Below, one piece after another: positions 12,391 through 36,300 of a stretch of 44,375 bases of DNA. The stretch covers positions 1-44,375 of the forward strand of contig CAILXF010000022.1 in the NCBI GenBank assembly GCA_903838125.1, given 5' to 3'. Every line of letters starts with the position of its first letter. Position 1 is the stretch's first letter. The translations under genes were made by a program, and so were the position numbers. The stretch is from an uncultured Pseudomonadota bacterium (GTDB taxonomy: Bacteria > Pseudomonadota > Gammaproteobacteria > Burkholderiales > Methylophilaceae). The notes below the pieces were generated by a model. The model was not told the DNA's origin. It saw only the letters and a list, made by a program, of their open reading frames with translations, and ran no database searches.

Positions 12391-13080
12391 ATGTCAAAAA
12401 AATTTGAGCCATCTCCGTTTTTAATTGCCTGCGCGCGCTTAGTGACAGCGCGACTCAGGCTATTTGTCTCCATAGTGATTGGCGTGATTGTTGCGCTCGT
12501 GCTGCCTGAGTCTCTAGCCCTACATACTATTACGCGCATCATTATTGGCTGGAATGTGGGTACTTGGCTATACTTAATATTGGCCGCGCGCATGATGTTC
12601 TGGAGTAGTCATGAAAAAATGCGTAGCCGCGCTATTTTGCATGATGAAGGCAAGTTTTTTGTCTTGGCTATGGTCATCTTTGCCGCTATCGCCTCATTGG
12701 GCGCAATTGTTGCAGAGCTCTCAGTAGTGAAAGACATGCATGGCATGCTACGCTACTTACATATTGCGCTTGCCGTACTCACAATTTTATCGTCATGGGC
12801 ATTTACGCAAGTCATGTTCGCCTTGCATTACGCACATGACTTTTATGTCGCCACCGAACTTGGCGAGAATGGAGGGCTGTCATTTCCTGGCGTTACTACA
12901 CCAGACTACAGCGATTTCCTCTATTTTGCATGTGTGATTGGCACTTCCGGGCAAACTGCAGATGTAAGCTTTACGCGTAGATCAATGCGCAGAACTGGCT
13001 TAGCGCATTGTGTGCTGGCTTTTTTCTTTAACACCACTTTAGTGGCTTTAACTATCAATATTGCTTCAGGCCTTATTTAA
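12391..13080 (+). CDS. DUF1345-type membrane protein
   Basis: 229 aa, [27 protein letters not shown] and [21 protein letters not shown] motifs resembling DUF1345. Confidence 0.8.
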
Positions 13081-14510
13081 AGGGGCAGACTTAAGCTAGG
13101 CTCCGGCCTGTTAAATAATATCGTAATCTTTAAACCTCCGTCAGGACTGGCTTCAGTTAAAGAAATGCTTGCACCGTGCAATTTGGCAATTTCTTGAACA
13201 ATAGCCAAGCCTAACCCACTTCCTTCCTGCTCAGATCCAACGACACGGTGAAAGCGATCAAAAATCTTATCGCGCTCTGCTACGGGGACACCTGGACCAT
13301 TATCCTCAACGACTAATGCAACACCGTCAGCACTTACGTTAGTCGCCATGGTGACCCGTCCACCTTCCTGCGTATAACGAATCGCATTATCGAGAAGGTT
13401 ATATAACAGCTCCCGCAATCGCTCCTCATTTCCTTTAATCACTACTGGCAATTCGCTTTGCTCAAAACCCAAGTCAATCTGTTTGTGAATGGCGGTAGGA
13501 AGCATCAACAATACAATTTCCTTGGAGATTAAATTAAGATCAATTAATTCCATTTTAATCATTGGCAAAGCCTCCGGCTGACTTCTTGCCAATATCAACA
13601 ACTGATTAATTGTGTGCAATAAACGGTCTAAGCTTTGACGTACTTTAACGAAAATAGATTGCAACACCTCGGGGTCGCTTTCAATTTCAGCGAGCTCAAG
13701 CTGCGCTTGTGCACCTGCAAGTGGCGTGCGCAACTGATGTGCGGCATTAGCAATAAAGTTATTTTGAGCTGAGATTGAATTTTGGAGTTGAAGCATCAAT
13801 TGATTGATCGATCTAGCCACCAAAGCAACCTCTTTAGGAATATTCGGCAAATCAATAGGACTCAAATTTTGCTCTGACCTTGCTAGCACCTCATTCTGCA
13901 GAGAGTTTAATGGTGCCAATCCTTTCTTAACGCCTATTAGAATGATGAAATAGGTCAGCAGTACTAGGAGTAACTGCGGTAAAACCACCCCAATTAATAT
14001 CTTACTAGCCAAGGCATTACGACGATTCATTGTAGTTGCTACCTGCACCGTTAACTGATGCGAGACTGATCCGCTTCTAACCCAGAACGAAGATCGCGCT
14101 ACCCTGTATTGTGTTTGATTAATTTCGGTCAAAAAGAACTCAGGGTTTAATCTGGAGAGCTTGCTTGGCGACACCTGTGAAAGTTGCGGATTACCATTTA
14201 ACAATTTGCCCTGTGCATTGTTGACACTATAAATCACAGTATCCACTTCATCCTTAAGCAAAATTTGACTGAAATTCTCTAACATTTCAAAATCTTTTGC
14301 ATCTAGATTGGTGTGATTTAAGTAAGCAGCTATCTCTTTACTTGAACCGTATAAATCGGCATCCAATTCTTTTTCTAACGCGCCTATCGCTAACCTGTTT
14401 AACAATGTGCTATCAACTAAAATCAATAGCAACATCAATGGCATTAACCAAGTGAGTATTTTTTTACGTAAAGATGGATGTTCGCGCTGCATAATCACAT
14501 TTATATTCAT
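13077..14510 (-). CDS. Two-component sensor histidine kinase (TctE/QseC/PmrB-like)
   Basis: 477 aa; two TM, H-box [17 protein letters not shown]-box [14 protein letters not shown]-boxes DNGPGVP and GSGLGLAIV; alternative start 14492. Confidence 0.92.
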
Positions 14511-14524
14511 ACTATTTTAATAGC

Positions 14525-15193
14525 CTAATCCAGCTTATCCAACATATAACCCAAGCCACGTACTGTCCGAACTTCAACGCCGACACTCAGTAGTTTTTTG
14601 CGCAATCGATGCATATACACTTCAATTGCATTTTTACCCAAAGTATCATCCCAATCACTGATGTTTTCTATCAAACTTTCCTTACTTACGACTTTACCAA
14701 CACGCAAAAGCAAGCTTTCAAATAAGCTTAATTCACGTGGTGACAAACCAAAAGGTTGATCGCGATAGCTAACAACCCTTTCTTTAAGATGTAGCGTTAG
14801 GGGAGGATATTCGATACTAGAAACTAGCACAGCATGCTCTCGGCGCAACTGCGCACGCAATCTAGCCGCCAATTCAGCCAATTTAATGGGTTTAACTAAA
14901 TAATCATCAGCACCTGCATCTAGGCCGGCAATACGATCATCCAAACCATCTTGAGCAGTTAAGATGATGACTCGCGTACTTTGCTTTCTAAAACGCAAAT
15001 TTCTTAATATGCTTAATCCATCCATACTAGGCAATCCCAAGTCGAGCACCACCACATCATAGACGTCCTCATGCAATGCTGCATCAGCATGATTACCATC
15101 CCTAACCCAATCCACGACATAACCACTGTTTCGCAAATAAACGCTAGTGGCATTGCCAAGTATCGAATCATCCTCTACTAATAAAATACGCAT
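14525..15193 (-). CDS. OmpR-family response regulator (TctD/QseB/PmrA-like)
   Basis: 222 aa; MRILLVEDD receiver, phospho-Asp VVLDLGLP, DDYLVKP, C-terminal winged helix ...VYMHRLRKKL...VRTVRGLGYML. Confidence 0.95.
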   Translation of the reverse strand: MRILLVEDDSILGNATSVYLRNSGYVVDWVRDGNHADAALHEDVYDVVVLDLGLPSMDGLSILRNLRFRKQSTRVIILTAQDGLDDRIAGLDAGADDYLVKPIKLAELAARLRAQLRREHAVLVSSIEYPPLTLHLKERVVSYRDQPFGLSPRELSLFESLLLRVGKVVSKESLIENISDWDDTLGKNAIEVYMHRLRKKLLSVGVEVRTVRGLGYMLDKLD

Positions 15194-15283: not shown

Positions 15284-15315
15284 GTAAGTAAATTGTAAGT
15301 ATGTTTAATTATGAT
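15284..15315 (+). promoter_or_regulatory. Putative OmpR-family response regulator box overlapping the -35 region, plus -10 element
   Basis: Tandem 11-mers GTAAGTAAATT / GTAAGTATGTT (9/11 identical) at 15284-15305; -10-like TATGAT at 15310-15315; in the intergenic region between the response regulator and the HAD gene. Confidence 0.5.
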
Positions 15316-15358: not shown

Positions 15359-16042
15359 ATGCTTTTTGTAATTGATTTTGATGGCACACTTTCTGTCGGT
15401 GATACTGTTGACGCCATGTTGGAAAGATTTGCTGACGATAGCTGGCAAGACCTTGAGGCAGAGTGGCTAAAGGGTAATATTTCTGCCATCGAATGTATGA
15501 AGCAACAATTAGATTTAGTTAAAGTTGATCAAGTTACGCTCGAAAAGTTTTTCCGCGGCATTCAGTTGGATGCAAGCTTTATCCCATTTCACAAATATAT
15601 CAGTCAATTTTCAAAAGTTGCCATCGTCAGCGACGGCTTGGATCATGCGATAGATGTCGCAACACGGAATGCAGACATACCCAGCATGCCAATTTATGCA
15701 AATAAATTACATTTCAAACCCAACGGCGTCTCAATCAGTTATCCGTTTCGCAACCCAGATTGCAAGGCTGGCAACGGCGTATGTAAATGCAAAATTGCAG
15801 AAGAACTATCTGCTAACGTGGGTGGGCCAGTAATACTAGTGGGTGACGGGAAGTCAGACTATTGCCTAGCTAAGCATGCTGACATTGTATTTGCTAAGGG
15901 CAAACTGATTACACATTGCGAAAAAGAGAATATCCCCTTCCACCGTTTCCAAACTTTTGCCGAAGTGCTTAAGTTAGTTAAACAATGGGATGTAACTAAC
16001 AAATTACCTGTGAGCGCAATACACCAAAACAAAGCGGCTTAA
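15359..16042 (+). CDS. HAD-family phosphatase (MtnX-like)
   Basis: DFDGTLS motif, SDG, GDGKSD motifs; Cys-containing CKAGNGVCKCK insert resembling MtnX/PSP-like HADs. Confidence 0.8.
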   Translation: MLFVIDFDGTLSVGDTVDAMLERFADDSWQDLEAEWLKGNISAIECMKQQLDLVKVDQVTLEKFFRGIQLDASFIPFHKYISQFSKVAIVSDGLDHAIDVATRNADIPSMPIYANKLHFKPNGVSISYPFRNPDCKAGNGVCKCKIAEELSANVGGPVILVGDGKSDYCLAKHADIVFAKGKLITHCEKENIPFHRFQTFAEVLKLVKQWDVTNKLPVSAIHQNKAA

Positions 16043-16090
16043 GCTTAAGCCACTCATTATTTAACTTTGAGAAAGAAAGAGCCCAATCTA

Positions 16091-17464
16091 ATGGATGCAA
16101 AAATTATTGAAATTTTAGATAAAAACAACAAGTACTGTTCGCACGGTGACACCGTTAACTATGCTGACCCACCTAAAGTATTTGAGGATTGCGATGGTAG
16201 CTTTTTGTTTGATGAGAATAAAACACCTTATCTTGATTGGCAAATGTGGTATTCAGCAGTCAATTTTGGATATAAAAACAAGCGCTTAAGTGATGTTTTG
16301 CACAAGCAAGTAGACACCTTACCTCAATTAGCCAGCCAATATTTACATAAAGAAAAAGTTGATTTAGCTGAAATAATCTGTAAATACATGGAAGAGAAAT
16401 ACGGCGAAAAAGGCCGCGTTCACTTTAATGTTGGTGGCGCACAAGCAGTTGAAGATTCACTAAAACTTGTGCGTAATCACACTGGAAAAGTTCATCAATT
16501 CGCCTTTATGGGCGGCTACCATGGCCGTACACTAGGCGCATCAGCGATTACTTCTAGCTACCGTTATCGCCGTCGTTTTGGTAACTTTGCTGACCGTGCA
16601 CATTTTGTGCCTTACCCATACTGCTTCCGTTGCCCGTACGATATGAAAGTGGAAACTTGTGACACTTATTGCCACAAAGAATTTGAAAAATTATTTGAAA
16701 CAGAATACCAATCTGTATGGGATACCAAAGCAGAGGAATGTGAATTTGGTGCTTTTTACATTGAGCCTATGCAAGGAACTGGCGGCTACATTATTCCACC
16801 TGATGGTTATATGGAAAAGCTCCAAGCTAGCCTTAAAAAACGTAATGTGTTGTTAGTTGCCGATGAAATTCAAATGGGTGTCTATCGTACTGGTAAGCTA
16901 TGGTCTTGGGAAAATTTTGGCATTGTGCCAGACGTATTTGTTTTCGGTAAAGCCATTACAAACGGTCTAAATCCATTGTCAGGCATTTGGGCTAAAGAAG
17001 AATATATCAACCCAGAAAAATTCCCTCCTGGCACTACGCATTCAACGTTTGCATCTAACCCATTAGGAACAGCAGTTGCGTTAGAAGTCATGAAAATGAC
17101 ACAAGAGGGCAATTTTGGAGCAGAAGTTAATGAACGCGGTGCGTATTTTTTAAAGCAAATTCAAGCATTAAAAACACGCTGGAAAGTTGTTGGTGACGTC
17201 AGCGGTCTTGGTTTAGCTCTACGTATTGAGCTTTGTACCGAAGATGGTTTTACACCAAGCCGTGCGCTAGCGGACAGAATGTTTAATGAAGGATTAAAGG
17301 GCGACATCATGATTGATGGCAAGCAATATGGCTTGGTATTAGACATCGGTGGTTATCAAAAAAATGTGATTACCTTGGCTCCTTCATTATTAATTACTAA
17401 TGAAGAAATTGACCTAGGCATAAAATTGTTTGAAGCCTTACTTAAACGTTGTGGAGCTGCGTAA
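16091..17464 (+). CDS. Class III (fold-type I) PLP aminotransferase
   Basis: ADEIQMGVYRTGKLW, VFGKAITNGLNPLSG (PLP lysine), GGAQAVEDSLKLVR; likely start ATG 16091 (the track's 16067 is a TTG). Confidence 0.88.
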   Translation: MDAKIIEILDKNNKYCSHGDTVNYADPPKVFEDCDGSFLFDENKTPYLDWQMWYSAVNFGYKNKRLSDVLHKQVDTLPQLASQYLHKEKVDLAEIICKYMEEKYGEKGRVHFNVGGAQAVEDSLKLVRNHTGKVHQFAFMGGYHGRTLGASAITSSYRYRRRFGNFADRAHFVPYPYCFRCPYDMKVETCDTYCHKEFEKLFETEYQSVWDTKAEECEFGAFYIEPMQGTGGYIIPPDGYMEKLQASLKKRNVLLVADEIQMGVYRTGKLWSWENFGIVPDVFVFGKAITNGLNPLSGIWAKEEYINPEKFPPGTTHSTFASNPLGTAVALEVMKMTQEGNFGAEVNERGAYFLKQIQALKTRWKVVGDVSGLGLALRIELCTEDGFTPSRALADRMFNEGLKGDIMIDGKQYGLVLDIGGYQKNVITLAPSLLITNEEIDLGIKLFEALLKRCGAA

Positions 17465-17564
17465 CGCAATTTCACATAAAACAGAATAGTTTGAAAAATT
17501 TATTTCAGCTAATTTGAAAATACGTGCATCAGACATTAAATGCTTTGCAATAATATTTACATAT

Positions 17565-17583
17565 CCACCATCTTAGATGGTGG
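17565..17583. repeat. Perfect inverted repeat CCACCATC-TTA-GATGGTGG
   Basis: 8-bp perfect stem with 3-nt loop in the gap between aminotransferase and hydrolase; no following T-run. Confidence 0.7.
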
Positions 17584-17638
17584 GTATGGTATCTGTAATT
17601 AAACTTAATCAATAACCATGAAAGTAAACATTTCATAG

Positions 17639-18550
17639 ATGCAAAACAACAAGGTAATTAAATTAGAAACATTCAAGAAGCCAAGTATAGATGCTCTATT
17701 GGGTGAAAATGGCTTTATTGAGCGTAAAGGTAGCGTTGGCGTTCTATTGGTGCATGGATTAACAGGCACCCCGACTGAAATGAAGCAATATGGCAGAGTA
17801 ATTGCACGTCAAGGTTTTACCGTTGCCTGCCCCGAACTAGCAGGACATTGTGCAACCATTGAAGCGCTAACGGCGACTCAGTGGCAGGATTGGTATCAAT
17901 CAATTGAAGATGCCTTTGAGGCACTAAAAGAAGAGTGCGAACATGTATTTGTGTCAGGACTGTCTATGGGTGCATTAATAGCATTGTTGCTTGCAGCTAA
18001 AAAAGGTCATCAAGTAGCCGGTGTTATCCTACTATCCACCACATTCTTTTATGATGGCTGGAATGTACCAAAACTTAAACGCGCCCTATTATTACCATTA
18101 GTGCTCTACACACCCCTAAAATATTTTATGCAGTGGGAAGAAACATCCCCCTATGGTATTAAAGATGAGCGCGTACGGGCTATGGTGCATGCTATTTTAG
18201 AAAATCGCGACCATTTAGCCGCTGACAAAATAGGTTACTTTAAAACACCTGCTCTCGTTGTTTTAGAAAGTGTACGACTTATTAAGGCAGCAAAAAAAGC
18301 TTTGAAAGATGTGGTTTCTCCGACACTTATTGTTCACTCAACCGAAGATGATATGGCCAGTCTTAAAAATGCTTACTACACACAAGCGCATATAGCATCA
18401 AAAACGGTTGAAACTTTTTTTGTAGATGACACTTACCATGTACTGACGCTGGATAAACGTAAGGATGACGTAGCTAAGCGTGCTGCAAAATTTTGTAAAG
18501 AACAAGCAAAAATACTTAATAGCTTTAATAAAATAGCCGTATCTGCCTAG
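17639..18550 (+). CDS. Alpha/beta hydrolase (carboxylesterase/thioesterase-like)
   Basis: LLVHGLTGTPTEM oxyanion region, GLSMGA nucleophile elbow, HSTEDDM Asp, TYHVLTLD His. Confidence 0.88.
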   Translation: MQNNKVIKLETFKKPSIDALLGENGFIERKGSVGVLLVHGLTGTPTEMKQYGRVIARQGFTVACPELAGHCATIEALTATQWQDWYQSIEDAFEALKEECEHVFVSGLSMGALIALLLAAKKGHQVAGVILLSTTFFYDGWNVPKLKRALLLPLVLYTPLKYFMQWEETSPYGIKDERVRAMVHAILENRDHLAADKIGYFKTPALVVLESVRLIKAAKKALKDVVSPTLIVHSTEDDMASLKNAYYTQAHIASKTVETFFVDDTYHVLTLDKRKDDVAKRAAKFCKEQAKILNSFNKIAVSA

Positions 18551-18587
18551 ATTTAAGCCACGACATAACTAACAAGGACCTGAAATA

Positions 18588-18845
18588 ATGACCACCCCAA
18601 CTCTCGATGAAGTCGCGCAAGCTTTAAGTCAAATGGTTGCAGACAAAATGGATATTGATGTCGCTAGTATAAAAGCTGATAGCAGCTTGCAATCACTAGG
18701 CTTAGATTCTCTAGATACCTTTGATTTGATTTTCAGTGCTGAAGACCATTTCAAAATTAAAGTGCCTAATGACCAGATTAAAATTGAAACCCTACATGAT
18801 GTAAGCGTTTTGGTACATAAACTGACGATTGAACAAAACAAATAA
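18588..18845 (+). CDS. Acyl carrier protein
   Basis: 85 aa; LGLDSLDTFDLIFSAEDHFKIKVP, DSL phosphopantetheine attachment site. Confidence 0.93.
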   Translation: MTTPTLDEVAQALSQMVADKMDIDVASIKADSSLQSLGLDSLDTFDLIFSAEDHFKIKVPNDQIKIETLHDVSVLVHKLTIEQNK

Positions 18846-20095
18846 TGAGCATTATTTTAAATCGTCGCCGTGTTGTGATTACCGGCCTAAGCGTGGTGTC
18901 GCCGTTAGGAAATACGATTGCCGACTTAACTCAGAATATATTTTCTGGCGTATCTGGGATTAAATTACTTGACGCCGATTTCGTTGATAAATTAGATTGC
19001 AAGATCGCGGCACAGGCCCACTTTGACCCCGCAGATCATTTCAGCAAACACACTTACGGCATGCTGGATCGCACTAGTCAGATGGCACTTCAAACTAGTA
19101 TTGAAGCGATTAAAGACGCTAATCTAGAAATCACAGATCAGCTTAAACCGCGCATGGGTGTCTACCTAGGCACTGGCATGGGTGGGGCAAATTCGGTTGA
19201 AGAGGCTTATATAAGACTATACCGCGATAATGCCAGTCGCTTAAAACCGTTTACCGTGCTGATGGGAATGAATAACGCCGCGGCAGCGGCTATTGGGCTT
19301 GAGCATCAGCTCACCGGTCCTAATTTAACCTTTTCCACGGCCTGCTCTTCTTCATCTGTTGCTATAGGAGAGGCCTCAAGGCAAATTCGACACGGCTACG
19401 CTGATGTAATGCTCGCAGGTGGCAGTGAATCGCTACTGACCTTCGGCACCATTAAGGCTTGGGAAGCACTTAGAACATTGGCTGAACAAGATGTCAATGA
19501 CCTCACTAGCTCATGCAAGCCGTTTTCTGCAGATAGAACTGGCATGGTATTGGGTGAAGGTGCCGCGATGATGGTATTAGAGTCTTATGAGCATGCAATT
19601 GCTCGTGGAGCCACTATTTATGCTGAGATTTTAGGATACGGTTCAGCCAGCGATAGTGCACACATTACAAAACCATCAATTGATGGGCAGGCCATCACAA
19701 TACAAACCGCGATTCTGGATGCTGACATTCCATCGGAAGCTATTCAGTATATCAACGCGCATGGTACCGGCACTATGCTTAATGATGTCACTGAAAGCAA
19801 TGCGATTAAAAAAGCATTTGGCGATCATGCATATAACCTGAGCATCAGTTCAACTAAATCTATGCATGGTCATTTGATGGGTGCGACAGGTGCTCTGGAA
19901 GCAATTATTACTACACTGGCTGTGTATAACAACAAATTGCCACCTACGATTAATCTAAGTAATCCAGATCCTGAATGCGATTTAGATTATGTGCCCAATG
20001 TAGCCAAAACTTTGCCTAGACTTAATTATGCAATGTCGAATTCATTTGCCTTTGGTGGTACCGGCGCATCATTAGTATTTAAAAAAATTAATTAA
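18845..20095 (+). CDS. Beta-ketoacyl-ACP synthase (KASII/FabF-like)
   Basis: 416 aa; TACSSSS, INAHGTGT, STKSMHGHLMGA: intact C-H-H triad; start overlaps ACP stop (TAATG). Confidence 0.93.
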   Translation: MSIILNRRRVVITGLSVVSPLGNTIADLTQNIFSGVSGIKLLDADFVDKLDCKIAAQAHFDPADHFSKHTYGMLDRTSQMALQTSIEAIKDANLEITDQLKPRMGVYLGTGMGGANSVEEAYIRLYRDNASRLKPFTVLMGMNNAAAAAIGLEHQLTGPNLTFSTACSSSSVAIGEASRQIRHGYADVMLAGGSESLLTFGTIKAWEALRTLAEQDVNDLTSSCKPFSADRTGMVLGEGAAMMVLESYEHAIARGATIYAEILGYGSASDSAHITKPSIDGQAITIQTAILDADIPSEAIQYINAHGTGTMLNDVTESNAIKKAFGDHAYNLSISSTKSMHGHLMGATGALEAIITTLAVYNNKLPPTINLSNPDPECDLDYVPNVAKTLPRLNYAMSNSFAFGGTGASLVFKKIN

Positions 20096-20129
20096 TGATG
20101 TTGCTAAAGATTTAATCTAAGACCACCAT

Positions 20130-20486
20130 TTGTCTCAACTCGCCATTTTTGTCTGGTTACTAAATATCATCGTCGATACGTTGGGCCATATGGCGTTTAA
20201 ACGGGCAGCCATTATTGATCATGATAGCGAATGGGACCGTTGGAAGCAGATGCTCAGTTCATGGCCTTTGATGGTCGGCATTTTCTGCTTTGGATTAGAA
20301 TTCGTTTTGTGGCTGATACTGCTATCTATACTGCCGTTATCCATCGGCGTATTGTTAAGCGCGTTTAATACTGTTTCCATTATGATGGCCGGCAGAATAA
20401 TCTTTAAAGAAATGCTAGATCCCTTAAGGCTAGTTGGTATTGGTCTAATCACAATCGGCGTGATGCTAGTAGGAGGTTATGCATGA
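20130..20486 (+). CDS. Small EamA/SMR-like membrane protein (ArnE-like size and topology)
   Basis: 118 aa, four TM; TTG start; stop overlaps next gene. Confidence 0.75.
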   Translation: MSQLAIFVWLLNIIVDTLGHMAFKRAAIIDHDSEWDRWKQMLSSWPLMVGIFCFGLEFVLWLILLSILPLSIGVLLSAFNTVSIMMAGRIIFKEMLDPLRLVGIGLITIGVMLVGGYA

Positions 20487-20869
20487 GAAAACGTGACTTT
20501 TACGCCATAGGCTTTAGTGTGCTAATCGTTTTTGACACCCTCACTCAAGTATCAATCAAACTAGCCTCAACCCATGCTGGCGAATTTTCCATGAAAACAG
20601 AATGGTTGCTGAAAGTATTACAGAACCCTTGGTTATATGCTGCAATGGGCGGTTATTTAGGTGCATTTGGCGCATGGATGACCTTGCTTAAGCGTGCGCC
20701 GGTTGGACCTGCTTTTGCCGCATCGCATCTTGGATTAGTCGCCGTACTCGCAATTTCAGTCGCCTATTTCGGTGAGCATTTATCTATTATGCAAGTAGTT
20801 GGAGCTCTATGCATTGTGGTCGGCATCGTCTTTTTAAGCTTGAGTGAAGCCAAACAACCGCATGCTTAA
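20483..20869 (+). CDS. Small EamA/SMR-like membrane protein (ArnF-like size and topology)
   Basis: 128 aa, four TM, ALCIVVGIVFLSLSE C-terminal helix; paired with preceding gene. Confidence 0.75.
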   Translation: MRKRDFYAIGFSVLIVFDTLTQVSIKLASTHAGEFSMKTEWLLKVLQNPWLYAAMGGYLGAFGAWMTLLKRAPVGPAFAASHLGLVAVLAISVAYFGEHLSIMQVVGALCIVVGIVFLSLSEAKQPHA

Positions 20870-22061
20870 TTGGCGCACAGAACCCCCTCCGACCGCTGGA
20901 CTACAGTTGACTTGGCGTGATTTCCTGCCGCAATCATCCTCATTAGAACAAGATTTAGCTAAATTCCTTAGTAGTGCAGAAAGTCAAATTGAGTGCTCCG
21001 GCACTGCAGCCATTATGGTTGCCCTCGCCGCCCTAAAAGGCACCAGCAAAAGGCGTAGTGTTGTAATTCCAGCCTACACCTGCCCCTTTGTACCTCTGGC
21101 TATATTGCGATGTGGTCTTACCCCTATCCTGTGTGACACTCGAAGTAACCATTTTGATTTTTGCCCAGATGCACTTGTAAGAGTGTGTGGCGATGACACG
21201 CTAGCCATTATGCCCACCCATCTCGGTGGACGCTTGGCAGACCTGAAAACAACAACAATAATTGCAAAAAAAGTGGGCGCTTATGTGCTAGAAGATGCAG
21301 CACAAGCTTTAGGCGCGCGATATCAAGGTCTGCTGGCTGGCACGATAGGTGATATCGGTTGTTACAGCTTAGGCGTTGGCAAAGGACTCACTATTTATGG
21401 TGGTGGCGCCATCGTTGCACATGATGCAAACATACGTCAGCTACTACGAAATACAGCACAAGAAATTGTACCAATCCAATTTAAATGGGAGGCGCGCCGA
21501 CTAGTTGAATTAATAGGTTACTACGTCCTATACCGCCCAATCGGATTAGGATTAGCTTTTGGTATATCACTGAGACGAAAACTTAAACAAGGTAAGTTAA
21601 TAGAGGCTGTTGGTGACGATTGCTCAGCCAACTTCCCATTACATCGTGTGGGACATTGGCGCAAAGTGATTGGAGCACGGGCACTAAAACGCTTGCCTGA
21701 CTTTATCTCACTAACCCGTGCACAAGCAAAAGCACGCAAAGGCCAGCTAGCAAAAATTATAGGCTTAAGCGTGATTGATGATGCCGTCGGAGACGAAGGA
21801 ACTTGGCCATATTTTCTAGTGCTCATGCCCAGCGAACAAGTGCGTAATAAAGTGCTGTCAGAATTATGGTGTGCTGGTCTAGGAGTAGGTCGCTTGTTTA
21901 TCCACGCCCTGCCCGATTACGCATTTCTAGACTTAGTACAACCGGATACACCTAATGCGCGTGACTTTGCAGCACGTACATTAACTATCTCTAATAGCCC
22001 TTGGCTCGTTGATCAAGATTTTATGAAGATTTGTAAAGTATTGGAGCATGCCGTTGCCTAA
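20862..22061 (+). CDS. DegT/DnrJ/EryC1-like PLP-dependent enzyme
   Basis: VVIPAYTCPFVPLAILRCGLTPILCD, LEDAAQALGARYQG, GDIGCYSLGVGKGLTIYGGG (putative PLP Lys); track start 20844, more likely ATG 20862 (MLNWRTEPPP). Confidence 0.82.
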   Translation: MLNWRTEPPPTAGLQLTWRDFLPQSSSLEQDLAKFLSSAESQIECSGTAAIMVALAALKGTSKRRSVVIPAYTCPFVPLAILRCGLTPILCDTRSNHFDFCPDALVRVCGDDTLAIMPTHLGGRLADLKTTTIIAKKVGAYVLEDAAQALGARYQGLLAGTIGDIGCYSLGVGKGLTIYGGGAIVAHDANIRQLLRNTAQEIVPIQFKWEARRLVELIGYYVLYRPIGLGLAFGISLRRKLKQGKLIEAVGDDCSANFPLHRVGHWRKVIGARALKRLPDFISLTRAQAKARKGQLAKIIGLSVIDDAVGDEGTWPYFLVLMPSEQVRNKVLSELWCAGLGVGRLFIHALPDYAFLDLVQPDTPNARDFAARTLTISNSPWLVDQDFMKICKVLEHAVA

Positions 22062-23208
22062 ATATTCGGTGAACTGGGTAGATTCAGAATCTGAAATTGC
22101 GTTGGAGTTATGGCAAGCATGCTTTCCTGCACCCTATGAAGGTCATTGGTGGTATCAAGCCTTAGAGCGTTGCGGCATCCTAGATCAATTTACTTTTTTA
22201 TATGCTGTAGTAAGCGATAAAACTGGTCCGATCGCCATCGCGCCTGCCTTTGTCATGAATGTACCTATGCGCCTAGTGTTACCACCACCATTATTGCCTT
22301 TGGCCAATATTGTAGGTTATATGCTTCCCTCGGCTTTATATCAACGCACACTGTTTATCGGCTCACCTTGCAGCGATGAAGGCCACGTTGGCATGCTACC
22401 AGGCACGGATAGCCTGGCAGTATTGCAATGCGTAGAACAGGCTATGCTCGTAAAAACAAAACAACTTAAAGCCAGTATGCGAGTATGGAAAGATTTTCCA
22501 CAAACGTACGCTAAAGATTTCTCAAAATTAAGCGCTAGCCTATTTAAATTAGTAAGCTTCCCTGGCACCATGGTCGAATTGCCAAATGCTAGTAAAGAAG
22601 GATACCTAGCTACGCTCAAGTCTTCACGTCGCAATAAGCTAAAGAAGAAACTTCGCTTAGCTGCGGAAAGCCCAGTCGACATAGAGGTGATGCAGCAACC
22701 AGACACTGCAACCATGGATCAGATTTTCAGTCTATTTTGGCAAACCTACGAAAAAGGTGGCACTAAATTCGAACGCTTAAATCGCAAGTTTTTTGACTTA
22801 CTAGCTGCAGAAACTAATAGCCACTTTGTCATATTACGGGAACAATCGAACGGTAAAATAGTGGCCTTTATGCTGTGCTTTTCGCTAGGCGACCATATGA
22901 TTAATAAATTTATTGGCATTGACTACCAAAAGCCAAAAGAATGGTTTTTGTACTTCAAATTATGGGAAGCAGCCGTGGACTGGGCAGCTAAAAATGGCGC
23001 TAAAGCTATACAAAGTGGTCAAACTGGCTATGCCCCTAAAATAGAACTGGGCAATCAATTGGTGCCACTCACCAATTATTGTGCGCATATCAACCCTGTA
23101 ATTAACTGGGTCTATGCCAAGGTAGCAAAAACTATTAACTGGGATACTTTAGATGCTGATTTAGCCATCTACCTAAAGGCTTATCCTGATGAAAAACCAA
23201 AACTATAG
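22048..23208 (+). CDS. GNAT/FemAB-like acyltransferase (Acetyltransf_6/BioF2-like)
   Basis: 386 aa; LKSSRRNKLKKKLRLA and FVILREQSNGKIVAFMLCFSLGDHMINKFIGIDY resembling FemAB/Acetyltransf_6. Confidence 0.7.
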   Translation: MPLPKYSVNWVDSESEIALELWQACFPAPYEGHWWYQALERCGILDQFTFLYAVVSDKTGPIAIAPAFVMNVPMRLVLPPPLLPLANIVGYMLPSALYQRTLFIGSPCSDEGHVGMLPGTDSLAVLQCVEQAMLVKTKQLKASMRVWKDFPQTYAKDFSKLSASLFKLVSFPGTMVELPNASKEGYLATLKSSRRNKLKKKLRLAAESPVDIEVMQQPDTATMDQIFSLFWQTYEKGGTKFERLNRKFFDLLAAETNSHFVILREQSNGKIVAFMLCFSLGDHMINKFIGIDYQKPKEWFLYFKLWEAAVDWAAKNGAKAIQSGQTGYAPKIELGNQLVPLTNYCAHINPVINWVYAKVAKTINWDTLDADLAIYLKAYPDEKPKL

Positions 23209-23236
23209 GCATGAGCTCGTTATAAAAGACTAAGTC

Positions 23237-23974
23237 ATGCGTGATAGATATTTAATACCACTATTCTTAACCTGTATTATAAGTATTCAGCCTCTGATAG
23301 CGTTAGCGGAAGCACCAGTCGCAACTAACGACCCAATCGCCTTCAAGTTCACTCCCTCTTACTATTTTTCATCTAATGGCAACAATGCCACCGACCTTAA
23401 TTTGCGCGCTAGTCGTGATGGGCATTCTGCTTGGCTAGGCGAATACGTAGACAAAAGTGGCTACCAACAAACCCGTCTAGGTTATGAATATAAGTTTGAT
23501 GGCGGTATGTTGAGGCCGACCTTATCGGCACAATTGGCCAGTGGCGGATTTGTGGGCGGTTCGTTAACAACCGAGGTAGGTGGTGAGTACTACGCTATTC
23601 TCGGATTAGGTCGCACAAACCTTAAAGATTACTACAACTTAAATTTCGACCCTAATGACGCCATCACATTCGGCCTTGGTACTCGTGCACTTAATAATAC
23701 TGAATTATCTTTACAACAAGTAAGAGATGATCGCCTAGGCACTGGGCAACAAATTACACACCTAATTTGGCGTTATAAACCAACGGAAGCAGAGAGAATT
23801 AGCATTGATGGCGCCTATAAAAGTTGTTTAGGTACCAATGCAACTTATGTACATGGCTACAGCCTAAGTGTTGATTATGACTACCATCAGTATTTTTCCA
23901 GAATAGCTTATGATCAATATGCAAATTTTACACTTAATAATTTAACGCGACTTTCAATAGGCATACGATTTTAG
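23237..23974 (+). CDS. Putative outer-membrane beta-barrel protein
   Basis: 245 aa; N-terminal signal peptide, alternating aromatic/polar strands, C-terminal LTRLSIGIRF. Confidence 0.65.
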   Translation: MRDRYLIPLFLTCIISIQPLIALAEAPVATNDPIAFKFTPSYYFSSNGNNATDLNLRASRDGHSAWLGEYVDKSGYQQTRLGYEYKFDGGMLRPTLSAQLASGGFVGGSLTTEVGGEYYAILGLGRTNLKDYYNLNFDPNDAITFGLGTRALNNTELSLQQVRDDRLGTGQQITHLIWRYKPTEAERISIDGAYKSCLGTNATYVHGYSLSVDYDYHQYFSRIAYDQYANFTLNNLTRLSIGIRF

Positions 23975-24162: not shown

Positions 24163-25482
24163 ATGAAATTTCGTGCTTTAACTTATCTTGCAATGCTCAT
24201 AATCGCCACATTTGCCAACTCGGCATATGCTGATGATGCGACACTGGAGCATTTAAGTTTTAGTGACGCAAATACATTATTTAGTAGCAATAACAGAGAA
24301 TTACTTCTAGCAAAACGTATGTTAGAGTCTGCACAGACTGGTGCAGTTATTGCCGCACAAAAACCCAACCCTGTGTTATCACTGGGCATTTCAAGTTTGA
24401 ATATTAATCGCGGTCAGGGAAATGCAAACCCTAATGGTAGTAATAGTCTAGCCGATAAAACCTTAAATAGTAGCGTACAAATTAATCAGTTATTTGAGCG
24501 TGGAGATAAACGTGAAATACGCATGGCCTCTGCTGAAAATGGTATTAAAGCTTCAAGCTATGATCTAAAAGACACACGCAGACAACAAACTCTGACGCTA
24601 GCCTATGCTTATTATGATTTGGTTCTGGCGCAGGAGTCAGAACAGATTCAAATAAGTAATGTGGCATTATATGAAAACACCCTAAAAGCAGCAGAACTGA
24701 GATTAAAAGCCGGCGATATATCGGCTTCTGATGTGGCTCGTATTAGGGTAGATTCTTTGCGTGTTAAAAATGACTTACGCCAGGCCAATGCCAATCACCA
24801 AAAAGCACAGGCCAATATTGCTTACTTAATGGGTAAAGAAAATGAAGCTAACAAAATCATTGCAACAGATCATTGGCCTTCAGCCAACTTAATTAGTCCT
24901 AACGCACTTAATCTGGCACCACTAAGCTTAGAAGCCAAACTCAACCAACGTGCTGATATTCTGGCGGCAGAAGCCAGAACGCAGCAGGCGGAAGAAAATA
25001 GACGCTTTGCAAATTCACTTAAAACAAGAGATCTTAATATTGGCGTTCAATATCAACATTTTCCTGGTCAAGGTCCAGCTGTAGGTGAGAATACAGTAGG
25101 TGCTTTTGTCAGCATACCGCTCTTTACTAACTACCAATATCAAGGTGAGATCGCCCGCTCTGAAGTTGATTACGTAACAGCAATGGAAGCCAAGGCGCAA
25201 GCACGCGCAACCGCCATAGGTGAAATTACCCGCAGCCAGGCTGATCTTGATGCGGCTATCGATAAAGTGCAGCGCTTTGAGCAACAAATGCTAGGGGAAG
25301 CTCAAAAAGCTACTGATGCGGCTGAATTTGCCTACCAACATGGAGCAATAGGCGTAACCGACTTACTAGACTCACGCCGAGTGCTGCGCGCATTGCAATT
25401 AGAATCAGCTTCGGCTCATGCTGACTACGCCAAAGCGTTTGCTGCATGGCAAGCGGCTACCAATACCGAGGAAAACCAATGA
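24163..25482 (+). CDS. czcC: Outer membrane efflux protein (TolC/CzcC-like)
   Basis: 439 aa; signal peptide, repeated alpha-helical OEP domains; first gene of a C-B-A operon. Confidence 0.85.
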   Translation: MKFRALTYLAMLIIATFANSAYADDATLEHLSFSDANTLFSSNNRELLLAKRMLESAQTGAVIAAQKPNPVLSLGISSLNINRGQGNANPNGSNSLADKTLNSSVQINQLFERGDKREIRMASAENGIKASSYDLKDTRRQQTLTLAYAYYDLVLAQESEQIQISNVALYENTLKAAELRLKAGDISASDVARIRVDSLRVKNDLRQANANHQKAQANIAYLMGKENEANKIIATDHWPSANLISPNALNLAPLSLEAKLNQRADILAAEARTQQAEENRRFANSLKTRDLNIGVQYQHFPGQGPAVGENTVGAFVSIPLFTNYQYQGEIARSEVDYVTAMEAKAQARATAIGEITRSQADLDAAIDKVQRFEQQMLGEAQKATDAAEFAYQHGAIGVTDLLDSRRVLRALQLESASAHADYAKAFAAWQAATNTEENQ

Positions 25483-26591
25483 ATAAAGTTTCACTAGTGT
25501 TGCTATTAGCAACGGCATTCACACTGCCAAATGCTTATGCAGCTGAAAAAATAGCCGCAGTAAAAAAGGCTTTATCTGATGAAGTAAGCTTTGCAGCCAA
25601 TGCTCCTCAGTTAGCTAATCTTAAAATAGAACCTGTCATAGAAATTACCGCGTCTACAACTTCTCCACTTAACGGTAAAATAACTTTCGATGAAAATTAT
25701 ACTAGTCGAGTTAGCTCTCCAATTTCAGGACGCGTGCTTAGTATCAAAGCGCAAGTTGGCGAAAAAGTAAAAGCGGGACAAGTCTTGGCGACCATTGATT
25801 CGCCAGAACTTGGCAGTGCGTTGGCTGACGCACGTAAAGCCTCTGCTGACCTACAACTTAAACATAAAGCATTTGAACGTAATAATTTACTCCTAGAAGG
25901 TGGCGTGATTGCTCGCAAAGATTTTGAAACTAGCCAATCCGATTTAGCCCAAGCGACCGCTGAAGAACAGCGCGCTAACGCGCATTTAAAAAATCTAGGT
26001 GCACAACGCAATGCCGATGAAAGCTTTATGCTACGCTCTCCGATTTCTGGCACAGTAGTCGACAGGCAGATTAATCCCAGCTCTGAAGTGCGCCCAGATG
26101 CAGCACTACCCCTCTTTATTATTACCAATCCAGACCACCTGTGGGCAAGCATAGATCTGCCCGAGCGCGATCTAGCTAAGGTTTCACCAGGTCAAAAATT
26201 AGCCATTCATGTTGATGCTTATCCAGATGAAGTATTTACCGGCAATATAGACTCCATAGGTGTAATGGTAGACCCTACCACTAGGAGAATTACCGTACGC
26301 TGCTCAGTACAAAGTCGCGGAAAACTTAAACCTGAAATGTATGCGCAAATTACACCGTTGAACACACAAAATGTAAAGGTGATACGCCTAGCGAATACTG
26401 CGTTAATTACTGAAGGTTTATATAACTATGTATTTGTTGAGATTACGCCCAACCACTTTAAGAAGCGTCGTGTAACACTTAATTCACAAGAGCGTGAGTT
26501 TGCTACTGTAAAAAGTGGATTAAACGTTGGTGAGCGTGTAATTAGCTCAGGTGCTTTTTTGCTTAACTCCGAATTAGCTATTGCCAAGTAA
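25479..26591 (+). CDS. czcB: RND membrane fusion protein (CzcB-like)
   Basis: Start ATG 25479 (MNKVSLVLLLATAF); lipoyl/barrel-sandwich motif SPISGRVLSIKAQVGEKVKAGQVLATIDSPEL. Confidence 0.88.
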   Translation: MNKVSLVLLLATAFTLPNAYAAEKIAAVKKALSDEVSFAANAPQLANLKIEPVIEITASTTSPLNGKITFDENYTSRVSSPISGRVLSIKAQVGEKVKAGQVLATIDSPELGSALADARKASADLQLKHKAFERNNLLLEGGVIARKDFETSQSDLAQATAEEQRANAHLKNLGAQRNADESFMLRSPISGTVVDRQINPSSEVRPDAALPLFIITNPDHLWASIDLPERDLAKVSPGQKLAIHVDAYPDEVFTGNIDSIGVMVDPTTRRITVRCSVQSRGKLKPEMYAQITPLNTQNVKVIRLANTALITEGLYNYVFVEITPNHFKKRRVTLNSQEREFATVKSGLNVGERVISSGAFLLNSELAIAK

Positions 26592-26618
26592 CTTGCCACC
26601 TTAAGTAAAGCAAAAACC

Positions 26619-29600
26619 ATGTTAAAAAATCTCATCACTTTCTCGCTTCAGCAGCGCATCTTTGTGTTGCTAGGCGCTTTAGTCATTATTGTTGCCGGCT
26701 ACTTTGCAGTTCAAAATTTACCAATTGAAGCATTCCCCGACGTTGAAGATGTGCACGTAGGCATTGTCACGCAGGCGCCTGGCTTAGCTCCAGAAGAGGT
26801 AGAGCGAGTGGTTTCACTGGCGATTGAACATGTTATGAGTGGAGTGCCTCATTTAATGCAAATGCGGTCAGTATCGATTACCGGCCTATCTGTTGTGACC
26901 CTAACTTTTTCAGAGCATACCGATGATTACTTTGCTCGCCAGCAGGTATTAGAGCGTCTACAGGAAGTAACATTACCACCAGGACTCCAACCAACATTGG
27001 CACCTCTAACAACTGCTGTGGGTGAAATTTACCGTTATGTTGTTGAGGCTCCCAAAGACATGCCTCAACGGGAAATACGTGCAATTCAAGATTGGAAAAT
27101 CATCCCAATACTTAGAACCGTTCCAGGCGTGGCAGACATCACAAGTTTTGGGGGGGCTGTCAAAGAGTATCAAGTACTACTCAATCCTTATCTCTTAACA
27201 AAATTTGGCATCAGCATTGATCAAGTCAACAAGGCCCTAGGCAATAATAGTAGCAATGTCGGCGGCGGCTTAATGCGTCGAGGTGATGAATCACTTGTAG
27301 TGCGTGGCGTTGGCTTATATGAAAACTTAGATGACATTGCCAAAACCGTAATTACTTCACGCGGTGGCAAGCCGATACTTATTAGTGACATCGCCAAAGT
27401 AGAGATAGGTGACCGACCTCGTTCAGGTATTGTTTCGTATAACAGTCAAGACGATGTAGTGGAAGGCATCGTCATTATGAATAAAGGCCAAAACCCAGCA
27501 AAGGTCATTGATTTATTGCGCTTGAAGGTAGAAGAAACAAATAAAAAATTACCAGCCGGAGTTCGTATAGCGCCGTTTTATGATCGGACCAACTTAATTA
27601 AACACACAGTAAGCACCGTCTCAGAGAACTTGATTGTTGGCGCACTATTGGTTGTGGCAATCTTAATTGTTTTTCTACGTAATTGGCGTGCTGCACTAAT
27701 TGTAGCTTCGGTGATTCCACTATCTTTACTATTTGCTTTTATCATCATGGATATCTGCGGTGTATCTGCCAACTTAATTTCTTTAGGCGCAGTCGACTTC
27801 GGAATTATTATCGATAGTGCCGTGGTGTTAGTAGAAGCTTTGATGGTGAAACTAGCGTTTACCCAACTCGATAAGTTTCCTCAACATGCCTCTTATAGCT
27901 GGCGTATTCAGACGCTAAAAAATACTGCAGTGGAAATGGGACGCCCGATTTTATTCTCAAAATTCATCATTATTCTAGCGTTTCTGCCTATTTTTACATT
28001 CCAGCGTGTGGAGGGAAAAATATTTTCACCCATGGCATTTACTCTTAGTTTTGCGTTATTAGGAGCTATCGTTCTAACGCTTACATTAATTCCAGCTCTA
28101 CTTTCATTTACCATGCGTCGTGAAGATATGGGCGAAAAACACAGCGTCTGGATGGAAAAAATTAAAGAAAGCTATAAAGATTTCTTACTTAATATGGCCA
28201 AAATGAGATTGCTTGTCATTGCTGCTTCTGTAGGGCTACTGGTTTTATCATTATCCTTATCACCTATGCTAGGTTCAGAGTTTTTACCAAAACTTGATGA
28301 AGGTAATATTTGGTTAACTATTAGCCTCCCCCCTTCTACCAACTTATATAAATCTAAAGAAATTGAACGCCATGCAAGAGAGATATTAAGAGGGTATAAA
28401 GAAGTGAAAATGGTGAGCTCTGGAGTAGGTCGTCCTGATGATGGAACCGATCCTAAAGGACCCAATAATATTGAAATATTTGCTGACCTTACGCCGTCCG
28501 ACACATGGAGCTTCCCAAACAAAGAGGCATTAATTAAAGATATGTCGGCAAAAATACATATTATTCCAGGTATACCGACAAACTTTTCACAAGTTATTCA
28601 GGATAATGTGGAAGAGGCAATGTCAGGCGTTAAGGGTGAGATTGCGATTAAGATTTTCGGTCCTAATCTTGGCATACTTGAAGAAAAAGCCAATCAAGTG
28701 GTTAGCGTACTTAATACTATTCGTGGTGCTAGTGATGTAGAAGCTATCCGTATTTCAGGTAACTCTGAATTAAATATCACCTTAGATAGAACCAAGCTTT
28801 CACGATATGGTTTGGCTGTTGGCGACGTCAACAATACAGTCCAAACTGCACTCGCAGACACTGCAGCAAATACCTTTTATGATGGAGATCGACGTTTTGA
28901 TGTCACGCTAAGGTTGGATGCTCCATACCGCCAATCAGTTGATAGCATCGATAATTTACCAATCACACTGCCTGATGGTGTTAGTACTATCCCACTAAGC
29001 GAATTGTCTGACATTAGTATAAAACAAGGTGCGTACCGAGTTAGTCGTGAAGGGGTATCTCGGATAGTCTCTATTAAATGTAATTTAATTAATCGTGACC
29101 AAGGTGGCTTTGTGAAAGAGGCTATGGCTAAGGTTCAAGCAAATGTCATTTTACCTGCTGGCTATAATATGACTTGGGGTGGTCAGTTTGAAAATCAGCA
29201 ACGTGCAATGAAACGTCTTGAAGTAATCGTGCCGCTGTCCATCCTTTTAATTTTTGTCATTCTTTTCTGGGCGTTTAAGTCTGTGCGTAATGCCATTTTG
29301 GTCTTACTAATGATTCCATTTACATTAATAGGTGGCTTGGCTGGATTAGGTTTAGCTGGTTTACACCTATCAGTCTCTGCCGCGGTAGGCTTTATTGCCT
29401 TAGCTGGGATCTCTGTCCAAAATGGTGTCATTATGGTGGAGCAAATTAAACATCTGATACTGGAAGGAGCCAGTCTGTCTAATGCAATTTTAGACGGCGC
29501 TGTAGCGAGACTGAGACCGATTTTGATGACAGCTTTAATGGCTGGCTTAGGCTTATTGCCTGCAGCTCTATCGCATAGCATAGGTTCTGAAACTCAACGA

Positions 29601-29738
29601 CCGTTTGCGGTAGTAATTGTAGGCGGACTCATTACCGCCACCTTTTTTACTTTACTATTATTACCACTATTGTTCCCATTCTTCTCTGATGAAAGTAAAG
29701 AAGAGAAAACTACGGGCAAAGAATCTACTGCTGAATAA
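26619..29738 (+). CDS. czcA: HME-type RND transporter (CzcA-like)
   Basis: 1039 aa; TM4 motif DFGIIIDSAVVLVE, PIEAFPDVEDVHVGIVTQAPGLAPEEVE typical CzcA. Confidence 0.92.
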   Translation: MLKNLITFSLQQRIFVLLGALVIIVAGYFAVQNLPIEAFPDVEDVHVGIVTQAPGLAPEEVERVVSLAIEHVMSGVPHLMQMRSVSITGLSVVTLTFSEHTDDYFARQQVLERLQEVTLPPGLQPTLAPLTTAVGEIYRYVVEAPKDMPQREIRAIQDWKIIPILRTVPGVADITSFGGAVKEYQVLLNPYLLTKFGISIDQVNKALGNNSSNVGGGLMRRGDESLVVRGVGLYENLDDIAKTVITSRGGKPILISDIAKVEIGDRPRSGIVSYNSQDDVVEGIVIMNKGQNPAKVIDLLRLKVEETNKKLPAGVRIAPFYDRTNLIKHTVSTVSENLIVGALLVVAILIVFLRNWRAALIVASVIPLSLLFAFIIMDICGVSANLISLGAVDFGIIIDSAVVLVEALMVKLAFTQLDKFPQHASYSWRIQTLKNTAVEMGRPILFSKFIIILAFLPIFTFQRVEGKIFSPMAFTLSFALLGAIVLTLTLIPALLSFTMRREDMGEKHSVWMEKIKESYKDFLLNMAKMRLLVIAASVGLLVLSLSLSPMLGSEFLPKLDEGNIWLTISLPPSTNLYKSKEIERHAREILRGYKEVKMVSSGVGRPDDGTDPKGPNNIEIFADLTPSDTWSFPNKEALIKDMSAKIHIIPGIPTNFSQVIQDNVEEAMSGVKGEIAIKIFGPNLGILEEKANQVVSVLNTIRGASDVEAIRISGNSELNITLDRTKLSRYGLAVGDVNNTVQTALADTAANTFYDGDRRFDVTLRLDAPYRQSVDSIDNLPITLPDGVSTIPLSELSDISIKQGAYRVSREGVSRIVSIKCNLINRDQGGFVKEAMAKVQANVILPAGYNMTWGGQFENQQRAMKRLEVIVPLSILLIFVILFWAFKSVRNAILVLLMIPFTLIGGLAGLGLAGLHLSVSAAVGFIALAGISVQNGVIMVEQIKHLILEGASLSNAILDGAVARLRPILMTALMAGLGLLPAALSHSIGSETQRPFAVVIVGGLITATFFTLLLLPLLFPFFSDESKEEKTTGKESTAE

Positions 29739-30961: not shown

Positions 30962-32314
30962 TTAAAAAGCAAACCAAGTGCTAAGGAGCAGTGTGTTTCT
31001 ATCACTTGGCTTTAGGCCCAACCCATCCACTTCTCTAGAACCGTCAAACTTGGTATAACCTGTATATTGCAATGAAACTCTAGCGAATGTCCAAGGATTG
31101 TAATCTAACTGTATGACGTAGCTTTGGGTATCTGGCTTAGTTACAGGATTACTTGAGCTATTAAACGCAAATGCATCATTACTCCCCGTAGTGTTAAAGT
31201 AAGCAAGAGAGGCGCCATATTTTCTGTCGTATAAATAACTCGCTTTAGCCTTGAATGTGTTCAAGTGATTCTGGGGATTACATGGCCCATTTGCGCAAGT
31301 CGAGTCATAACTAGCCCTGTTATCCTGCTTCTCATGCAGAAAAGTAGTCTGCACCGTGACGATATGAGGGTCAGACAAAAACTGATATTGAGCATCTAGA
31401 GCAGTATCTGTTAACCTGTCCGTTGGGCCATAGGGACTTAATGGATCAGGGAATTTATCTACTTGCATACCATACGTACCAAACATCAGCGAATGAGCAC
31501 CCCAATCTTCGTTCCATGCCAAGCGCCAATATGGGTTATTCCTCCCATCTATTCTAGTTACAGAGCCATCATTCCAGTTCTGCCCAGCACTTAAAATACG
31601 GAATGCCTTATTCGCATTTCCATAGAATGACAGTTCACCATATAAATGACGGTCATACCAAACATAGGCGCCCAGACCGGCCACCTGCTGACTAAGGCCA
31701 CCTTCTATAATAGAACTAGTAAAGCTTGGGCCTGGAACGCCAGGTAAATTGGGGCCATTAAATGGAAATCCCCAAGCAGGCGTTGTGTTCCATACATCCT
31801 GCACAGAAGGGTTGTTGTTTAAATTCAAACCAAAGACTGTATTTTTCCCAAGAATATCATGCGTCATAATCAATCTTAGGTCAGTGTTATCCAGTCCACT
31901 ATGCCCTACGAGCTTACCGTCACTATTTGTGATCCCATTGTTTGAGTAAGTCCATTGCACAAACATGCCCGCATAATCGCTCAACTTGCCTGCAGCAAAA
32001 ACTCCTAACACATCAAATTGCGGGTCATTCTGATGTGGCATCATTTGCGCACCAGTATTATCATGATTCTTAGCAACATTGGTCATCGAAAACTGCATCA
32101 TGGCAGCTAGTGGTATCAACTGCCGCTCACCCAAGGTATATCCATTAAGCTTAAACTCTCTACCAAAAGGTGTAAGTTCTGGAAAACTGGTGTGGCATGC
32201 AGCACAATTCATTCCTGTCTGCCGTCCGAAGGATGGAACAGCAAAACTGGTAATAGGAGATAGAGTGATTACGACCGTAACTAGGAATAGTATTGCTTTT
32301 AAAGTTTTTATCAT
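30962..32314 (-). CDS. Cyc2-like fused monohaem cytochrome c / outer-membrane porin
   Basis: 450 aa; signal peptide, VPSFGRQTGMNCAACHTSFPELTPFGREFKLNGYT (single CxxCH), long beta-barrel-like region ending LLLSTWFAF. Confidence 0.75.
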   Translation of the reverse strand: MIKTLKAILFLVTVVITLSPITSFAVPSFGRQTGMNCAACHTSFPELTPFGREFKLNGYTLGERQLIPLAAMMQFSMTNVAKNHDNTGAQMMPHQNDPQFDVLGVFAAGKLSDYAGMFVQWTYSNNGITNSDGKLVGHSGLDNTDLRLIMTHDILGKNTVFGLNLNNNPSVQDVWNTTPAWGFPFNGPNLPGVPGPSFTSSIIEGGLSQQVAGLGAYVWYDRHLYGELSFYGNANKAFRILSAGQNWNDGSVTRIDGRNNPYWRLAWNEDWGAHSLMFGTYGMQVDKFPDPLSPYGPTDRLTDTALDAQYQFLSDPHIVTVQTTFLHEKQDNRASYDSTCANGPCNPQNHLNTFKAKASYLYDRKYGASLAYFNTTGSNDAFAFNSSSNPVTKPDTQSYVIQLDYNPWTFARVSLQYTGYTKFDGSREVDGLGLKPSDRNTLLLSTWFAF

Positions 32315-36265: not shown

Positions 36266-36300
36266 GCGGCTATTGGGTCTTTATATAAGCTTATGAGGAA

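Follow-up and report, generated by a model that had tools for sequence, protein, structure and literature searches.

The window analysed here is a 44,375-nucleotide stretch (contig C22). Its genome, from an uncultured member of the Methylophilaceae, measures 1.6 Mb and is 86% complete. At positions 15359-23974 the window carries ten plus-strand open reading frames (ORFs), including those for a phosphatase, a class III aminotransferase, a carrier protein with its own ketosynthase, a pair of small membrane subunits and a FemAB-like transferase. The product of this cluster is very probably a fatty molecule that contains nitrogen and is carried across the envelope, with a two-component system in control. 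More specifically, we tentatively read the locus as one for the regulated synthesis and export of an N-acylated amino lipid. The functional unit probably begins further left than the first of the ten ORFs, with a divergent two-component system at 13077-15193.

Gene content and conservation of the cluster

The cluster opens with a HAD-IB phosphatase (HAD, MtnX/SerB-like; 15359-16042) and continues with a class III pyridoxal-phosphate (PLP) aminotransferase (AT3, Aminotran_3; 16091-17464), an alpha/beta hydrolase-fold protein resembling monoacylglycerol lipases (HYD; 17639-18550), a dedicated acyl carrier protein (ACP, PP-binding; 18588-18845), a dedicated FabF-like ketosynthase (KAS; 18845-20095), two SMR/EamA subunits with four transmembrane segments that are ArnE-like (SMR1; 20130-20486) and ArnF-like (SMR2; 20483-20869) by best match, a PLP enzyme of the DegT/DnrJ/EryC1/StrS type (DegT, DegT_DnrJ_EryC1; 20844-22061) and a FemAB-like/GNAT protein (FemAB, with FemAB_like PF04339 and Acetyltransf_6 PF13480; 22048-23208), a putative N-acyltransferase. 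These assignments come from Pfam and NCBIfam profiles (Pfam for HYD and FemAB), together with alignments for AT3, HYD, ACP and KAS and a tree for KAS. The ACP stop and KAS start share one base (TAATG), and overlaps of 4, 26 and 14 bases join SMR1 to SMR2, SMR2 to DegT and DegT to FemAB, respectively. A preliminary description of this DNA had reported the gene set, its co-direction, these overlaps and an intact Cys-His-His triad in KAS, all of which we confirmed. The AT3 ORF opens at TTG 16067, and ATG 16091 is the more likely start because homologues begin with MDAKIIEI or MDQKIIEI.

Alignments indicated that the catalytic residues are intact. KAS C167, H306, H343 and K338 and ACP S41 (the DSL serine) are all conserved in the family. 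K180, E150-D151 and other motif residues of DegT are conserved as well, the DFDGT nucleophile motif of HAD is intact, and AT3 retains the HGRT arginine found in class III aminotransferases of the glutamate type along with an invariant RYRRR motif. The HYD nucleophile is serine in the window and in most loci and cysteine, in a PhaC-like GICVGG box, in rhizobial orthologues; this swap suggests an acyl-enzyme that may transfer its acyl group instead of hydrolysing it. Cysteine variants as in polyhydroxyalkanoate synthases (GICVGG, GICAGG or GLCAGA) were seen at loci L170, L171, L173, L174, L175, L127 and L163. HAD homologues also share invariant cysteines (C46, C135, C142, C144, C169 and C187), possibly a metal site.

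That these genes travel together was borne out by a conserved, linked set within and outside the family, and this set looks like the proposed biosynthesis and export unit. Presence was scored at E below 1e-110 for AT3, 1e-40 for DegT and 1e-125 for cluster-type KAS, and among 187 genomes of the window's family they were found in 44, 25 and 51, respectively. Cluster-type KAS occurred in 42 of the 44 AT3-positive genomes (two had AT3 only) versus 9 of the 143 AT3-negative ones (Fisher p = 2e-30, a value that ignores relatedness), and in 38 of the 42 shared genomes the two genes lay at most 6 kb apart on one contig. DegT and AT3 were shared by 21 genomes (Fisher p = 4.6e-12, again ignoring relatedness), a count that includes genomes with both on different contigs or far apart. 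Nearly every family locus has ACP, KAS and AT3 side by side, full or near-full blocks occur in L096, L097, L104, L098, L099 and others, and the gene arrangement is far beyond chance. In four loci of one genus (L107, L108, L109 and L110), DegT is the immediate neighbour of an RND pump and stands apart from the HAD-AT3-KAS operon.

Beyond the family, the block turns up only thinly, but it does exist. A sample of 369 genomes of the class had AT3 in 5 other genomes, the family of genome G460 in 16 of 120, and a 249-genome sample of the phylum in 18 others; the AT3 neighbourhoods there again contained HAD, HYD, SMR1, SMR2, DegT and FemAB, as well as an arginase-family protein (PF00491). Comparable plasmid loci were found in Agrobacterium fabrum, Rhizobium, Sinorhizobium, A. 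salinitolerans and Xanthomonas sacchari, with a partial one in Bartonella; the X. sacchari locus has all nine enzyme, carrier and SMR genes plus the arginase-family gene, beside HlyD-ABC-TolC genes and a two-component system. The Bartonella plasmids (L172:10177-15445) lack HAD; there, a D-serine/D-alanine/glycine transporter gene has AT3, a GNAT gene and an arginase-family gene as neighbours. Across 56 AT3-anchored loci, the partners were HAD (53), HYD (49), SMR1 (37), FemAB (34), KAS (33), SMR2 (33), ACP (31), the arginase-family gene (25) and DegT (19), all lower bounds owing to contig ends. The core that recurs across unrelated proteobacteria is HAD, AT3 and the hydrolase, usually with the SMR pair and often with ACP-KAS, FemAB/GNAT and DegT.

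Regulation and neighbouring genes

Upstream of HAD, on the opposite strand, lie a PmrB/QseC-like sensor histidine kinase (2CSK_N, HisKA, HATPase; 13077-14510), identified by profile matches and neighbourhood, and an OmpR-family response regulator of the PmrA/TctD/QseB type (14525-15193), identified by profile matches. Their best NCBIfam matches are PmrB (187 bits, cut-off 314) and PmrA (211 bits, cut-off 330), and two-component genes of this type adjoin the cluster in most homologous loci. The intergenic regions upstream of HAD have in common a direct repeat with an 11-base period, GTAAG-N6-GTAAG, which in the window lies at 15284-15299 on the plus strand, 60 bases upstream of HAD. Of the 25 family loci with HAD, 21 have an exact copy 41-162 bases ahead of that gene, and the box is degenerate in L096 and L097, both of which are without a two-component system beside HAD; no exact match was found in loci outside the family. 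The copy in the window is the only exact one in the 1.6-Mb genome, and since a reversed control pattern gives two, one chance copy per genome would be unremarkable and the evidence is the conserved position. The box also precedes cluster-adjacent fatty-acid desaturase genes (L131:2487, L136:13286, L140:7939 and L141:5985). As it was spotted by eye in the same sequences, what counts is how many loci have it, together with these independent desaturase sites. Overall, there is strong sequence evidence for putative control of the operon by a PmrAB/TctDE/QseBC-like two-component system through this predicted box. The preliminary description mentions neither the two-component system nor the box, and neither the arginase-family partner nor the exporters next to the cluster.

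The tenth ORF (23237-23974, plus strand) encodes a protein that is predicted to be secreted or to sit in the outer membrane and that belongs to no known family (no Pfam match). It follows the cluster in L111 and, at 60-62% identity, in L133 and L180, and is tied to the cluster in one sub-lineage only; in rhizobia, MipA/OmpV genes occupy a similar place. Further downstream, on the minus strand, an RND permease, a HlyD-type adaptor and a TolC-type outer-membrane protein (33194-38933) form a candidate export partner, as judged by neighbourhood: this RND family adjoins the cluster in L096, L097, L104, L131, L132 and L135. Between the two, the window holds a CusA/CzcA-type heavy-metal RND system on the same strand as the cluster (24163-29738) and a 450-residue ORF with no Pfam match (30962-32314).

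Proposed pathway and competing readings

From the observed genes, linkage, catalytic motifs, regulator and box, we infer a product and a set of substrates as follows. AT3 would transaminate a keto compound, probably a phosphorylated one, and HAD would dephosphorylate the result to an amino-alcohol or amino-sugar-like head group; this is the simplest reading because the constant partner of AT3 is a SerB/MtnX-type phosphatase, and the logic parallels that of SerC-SerB and HisC-HisB. The presence of HAD in 53 and of HYD in 49 of the 56 AT3 loci supports the scheme as a whole, as do the linkage within the family and beyond it, the ArnE/ArnF and PmrA/PmrB best matches and the box. ACP and KAS, with host FabG, FabA and other enzymes of fatty-acid synthesis (FAS) acting in trans, would supply a special acyl chain, which the FemAB/GNAT protein may move to the amine, and the hydrolase-fold protein may either release the chain or carry out a second acyl transfer. 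In known cases, proteins of the FemAB type move acyl or aminoacyl groups. DegT, or the arginase-family enzyme in other lineages, might then tailor the head group, the SMR heterodimer would flip the product to the other side of the inner membrane for possible export by an RND or ABC-TolC system, and the two-component system would switch the operon through the predicted GTAAG-N6-GTAAG box.

The acyl-chain role is supported by fatty-acid desaturases and cyclopropane-fatty-acid (CFA) synthases, acyl-chain modifiers that are part of the cluster unit in other lineages, and KAS itself is informative. In our tree, cluster KAS forms its own clade, separate from FabF and FabB of the window genome (support 97/96). 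The lack of a ketoreductase (KR), dehydratase (DH) and enoyl reductase (ER), noted in the preliminary description and true for the window genes that we scanned with Pfam, says little because the genome carries fabD-fabG-acpP-fabF and fabB-fabA elsewhere. Since the clade includes KAS beside rpfF, the gene of the diffusible signal factor (DSF) synthase, its product should be an ordinary reduced or hydroxylated acyl-ACP, and the clade probably serves fully processed acyl chains; DSF precursors are 3-hydroxyacyl-ACPs (PMC5941067). The rpf-type KAS genes are one group nested within cluster KAS, and their position beside rpfF in related genomes illustrates the re-use of a dedicated ACP-KAS pair. In AT3-negative relatives, same-clade KAS lies beside rpfF and a hybrid histidine kinase gene (L176:7714-10262 and L178:8088-10646, with the identity of rpfF confirmed by profile in both); same-clade KAS was also found in L177, L179, L181 and L183, and an ACP was detected in L178 and L179.

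Several observations weigh against the N-acyl amino lipid. Many homologous loci have no ACP-KAS and about 40% have no FemAB, which means that the unit does not strictly depend on either, and in some genomes the SMR-DegT-FemAB operon is unlinked, with no GTAAG box found upstream of it. The unit has no conserved glycosyltransferase, OlsA-like O-acyltransferase or ligase, which makes the head group and the acyl linkage guesses. No relative of FemAB was found in the PDB by sequence or profile, and AlphaFold models built from 2-4 input sequences were of too low confidence for use (mean pLDDT 37 for FemAB and 52 for DegT). Finally, the exporters would be equally in keeping with a secreted signal or antibiotic and with a membrane lipid. 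RND or ABC-HlyD-TolC genes stand beside many loci, KAS is re-used beside the DSF synthase gene, and the distribution is patchy (44 of 187 family genomes), as would suit the same enzymes making a diffusible signal or antibiotic that such pumps secrete while protecting the producer; yet neither the type nor the position of the pumps is strictly conserved, envelope modification suits an SMR pair and a PmrAB-like regulator equally well, and we regard this outcome as unlikely.

The preliminary description had instead favoured a short ketoacyl-ACP, made by KAS and ACP, aminated by AT3 to a beta-amino acyl-ACP, and then released or transferred and exported. The adjacency of ACP, KAS and AT3 in nearly all family loci speaks for this route, and the invariant basic RYRRR of AT3 could dock an acidic ACP. 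However, AT3 keeps HAD far more constantly than KAS (53 versus 33 of the 56 loci), and AT3-HAD-HYD with no KAS or ACP nearby is common outside the family, where KAS occurs in 10 of 31 AT3 loci and in none of the rhizobial versions examined, including annotated Rhizobium and Agrobacterium loci. The substrate of AT3 therefore cannot generally come from cluster KAS, and the route, which also leaves the near-universal phosphatase without a role, is in our judgement distinctly unlikely. An Arn-like amino-sugar lipid, in which DegT would make an amino sugar, FemAB would N-acylate it and the SMR pair would flip the lipid-linked form so that the envelope is modified under PmrAB-like control, agrees with the match of DegT to sugar aminotransferases and with the best matches of the SMR and regulator proteins. 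It is nonetheless unlikely given that DegT scores 67.9 bits against an ArnB cut-off of 631 and is missing from many otherwise complete loci (present in 19 of the 56), and that the unit conserves no glycosyltransferase or nucleotide-sugar enzyme. A polyamine or guanidine conjugate, with the arginase-family enzyme and AT3 processing an arginine- or agmatine-derived amine for acylation and SMR export, draws on the metal-ligand motifs kept by the arginase-family partner and on its nearest solved relatives, agmatinases and arginases. This seems very unlikely: the agmatinase profile of NCBIfam is matched only far below its cut-off, a search of the window genome found no such gene, only 11 of 43 family genomes with AT3 have one, and HAD is left unexplained.

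The N-acyl amino lipid thus stays our working model. A broader formulation, which we hold a little more loosely, is that the cluster, across alpha-, beta- and gammaproteobacteria, may make and export N-acyl amino lipids or lipid signals of a new class, building on a HAD-AT3 head-group module with lineage-variable ACP-KAS, desaturase, CFA synthase, DegT or arginase-family enzymes, an SMR pair and a PmrAB-like regulator. If true, freshwater methylotrophs, plant-associated Xanthomonas and plasmids of rhizobia would share a route, so far overlooked, by which a lipid of the envelope or a secreted one is made and exported. The part list, the regulator with its predicted box that is unique in the genome and the cultured relatives that have the complete block put the product within reach of testing.

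Comparison with known systems

In keeping with the preliminary description, which could name no characterised pathway, we found no description of this gene set, or of such clusters in Xanthomonas sacchari or Methylotenera, in open-licence PMC papers, and the assembly appears undescribed although every family in it is known. Three other candidates were rejected. A type II polyketide synthase or aryl polyene cluster does not fit one KAS with no KR, DH, second ketosynthase or chain-length factor in the cluster, and eight cluster proteins gave no PADLOC match to anti-phage defence. Exosortase-A-associated genes (hydr2_PEP) share a hydrolase and an ACP in an envelope-related cluster, and FemAB-like proteins also occur in such clusters, but HYD scores 23.6 bits against the hydr2_PEP cut-off of 202.75 and the window genes examined include no exosortase.

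The arn operon under PmrAB combines the SMR pair ArnE/ArnF, a DegT-type PLP enzyme and a hexamer-N5-hexamer type box. The cluster shares an SMR pair, a DegT-type enzyme, a PmrAB-like two-component system and a similar direct-repeat box, but its proteins match the Arn and Pmr profiles far below the curated cut-offs (SMR1 versus ArnE, 35.7 bits, cut-off 92; SMR2 versus ArnF, 28.6 bits, cut-off 99), is without ArnA, C, D and T and, among the window genes scanned, any glycosyltransferase, and has ACP, KAS, HAD, AT3 and the hydrolase instead.

For the head group, the serinol branch of the rhizobitoxine pathway, in which RtxA makes serinol from dihydroxyacetone phosphate (PMC3222319), offers an analogy for the logic only: AT3 and HAD would suit a route in which a phosphorylated ketone is first transaminated and then dephosphorylated, giving an amino alcohol. 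With NodF/NodE and NodA (PMC9048898), the cluster shares a dedicated ACP and FabF-like KAS, which are adjacent and conserved as a pair, alongside a putative N-acyltransferase, probably borrowed FAS steps and a product that would be exported. It differs in having FemAB/GNAT rather than NodA (Pfam gives PF04339/PF13480 only) and in lacking a chitin-oligosaccharide synthase, as no NodA-family acyltransferase or NodC synthase was found among the window genes scanned, and it adds AT3, HAD, the hydrolase, the SMR pair and DegT or arginase-family enzymes. The OlsB/OlsA, GlsB and GluB aminolipid systems (PMC11631085) resemble it in the proposed joining of an acyl-ACP and an amine by an N-acyltransferase into a non-phosphorus amino lipid. 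Their N-acyltransferases belong to PF13444 (PMC11631085), whereas FemAB carries PF04339/PF13480 and no PF13444, an OlsA-like O-acyltransferase is lacking, and enzymes encoded in the cluster itself apparently make the head group. The cluster lacks features that define the Nod factor, OlsBA and Arn systems, yet it may work like OlsBA and Arn.

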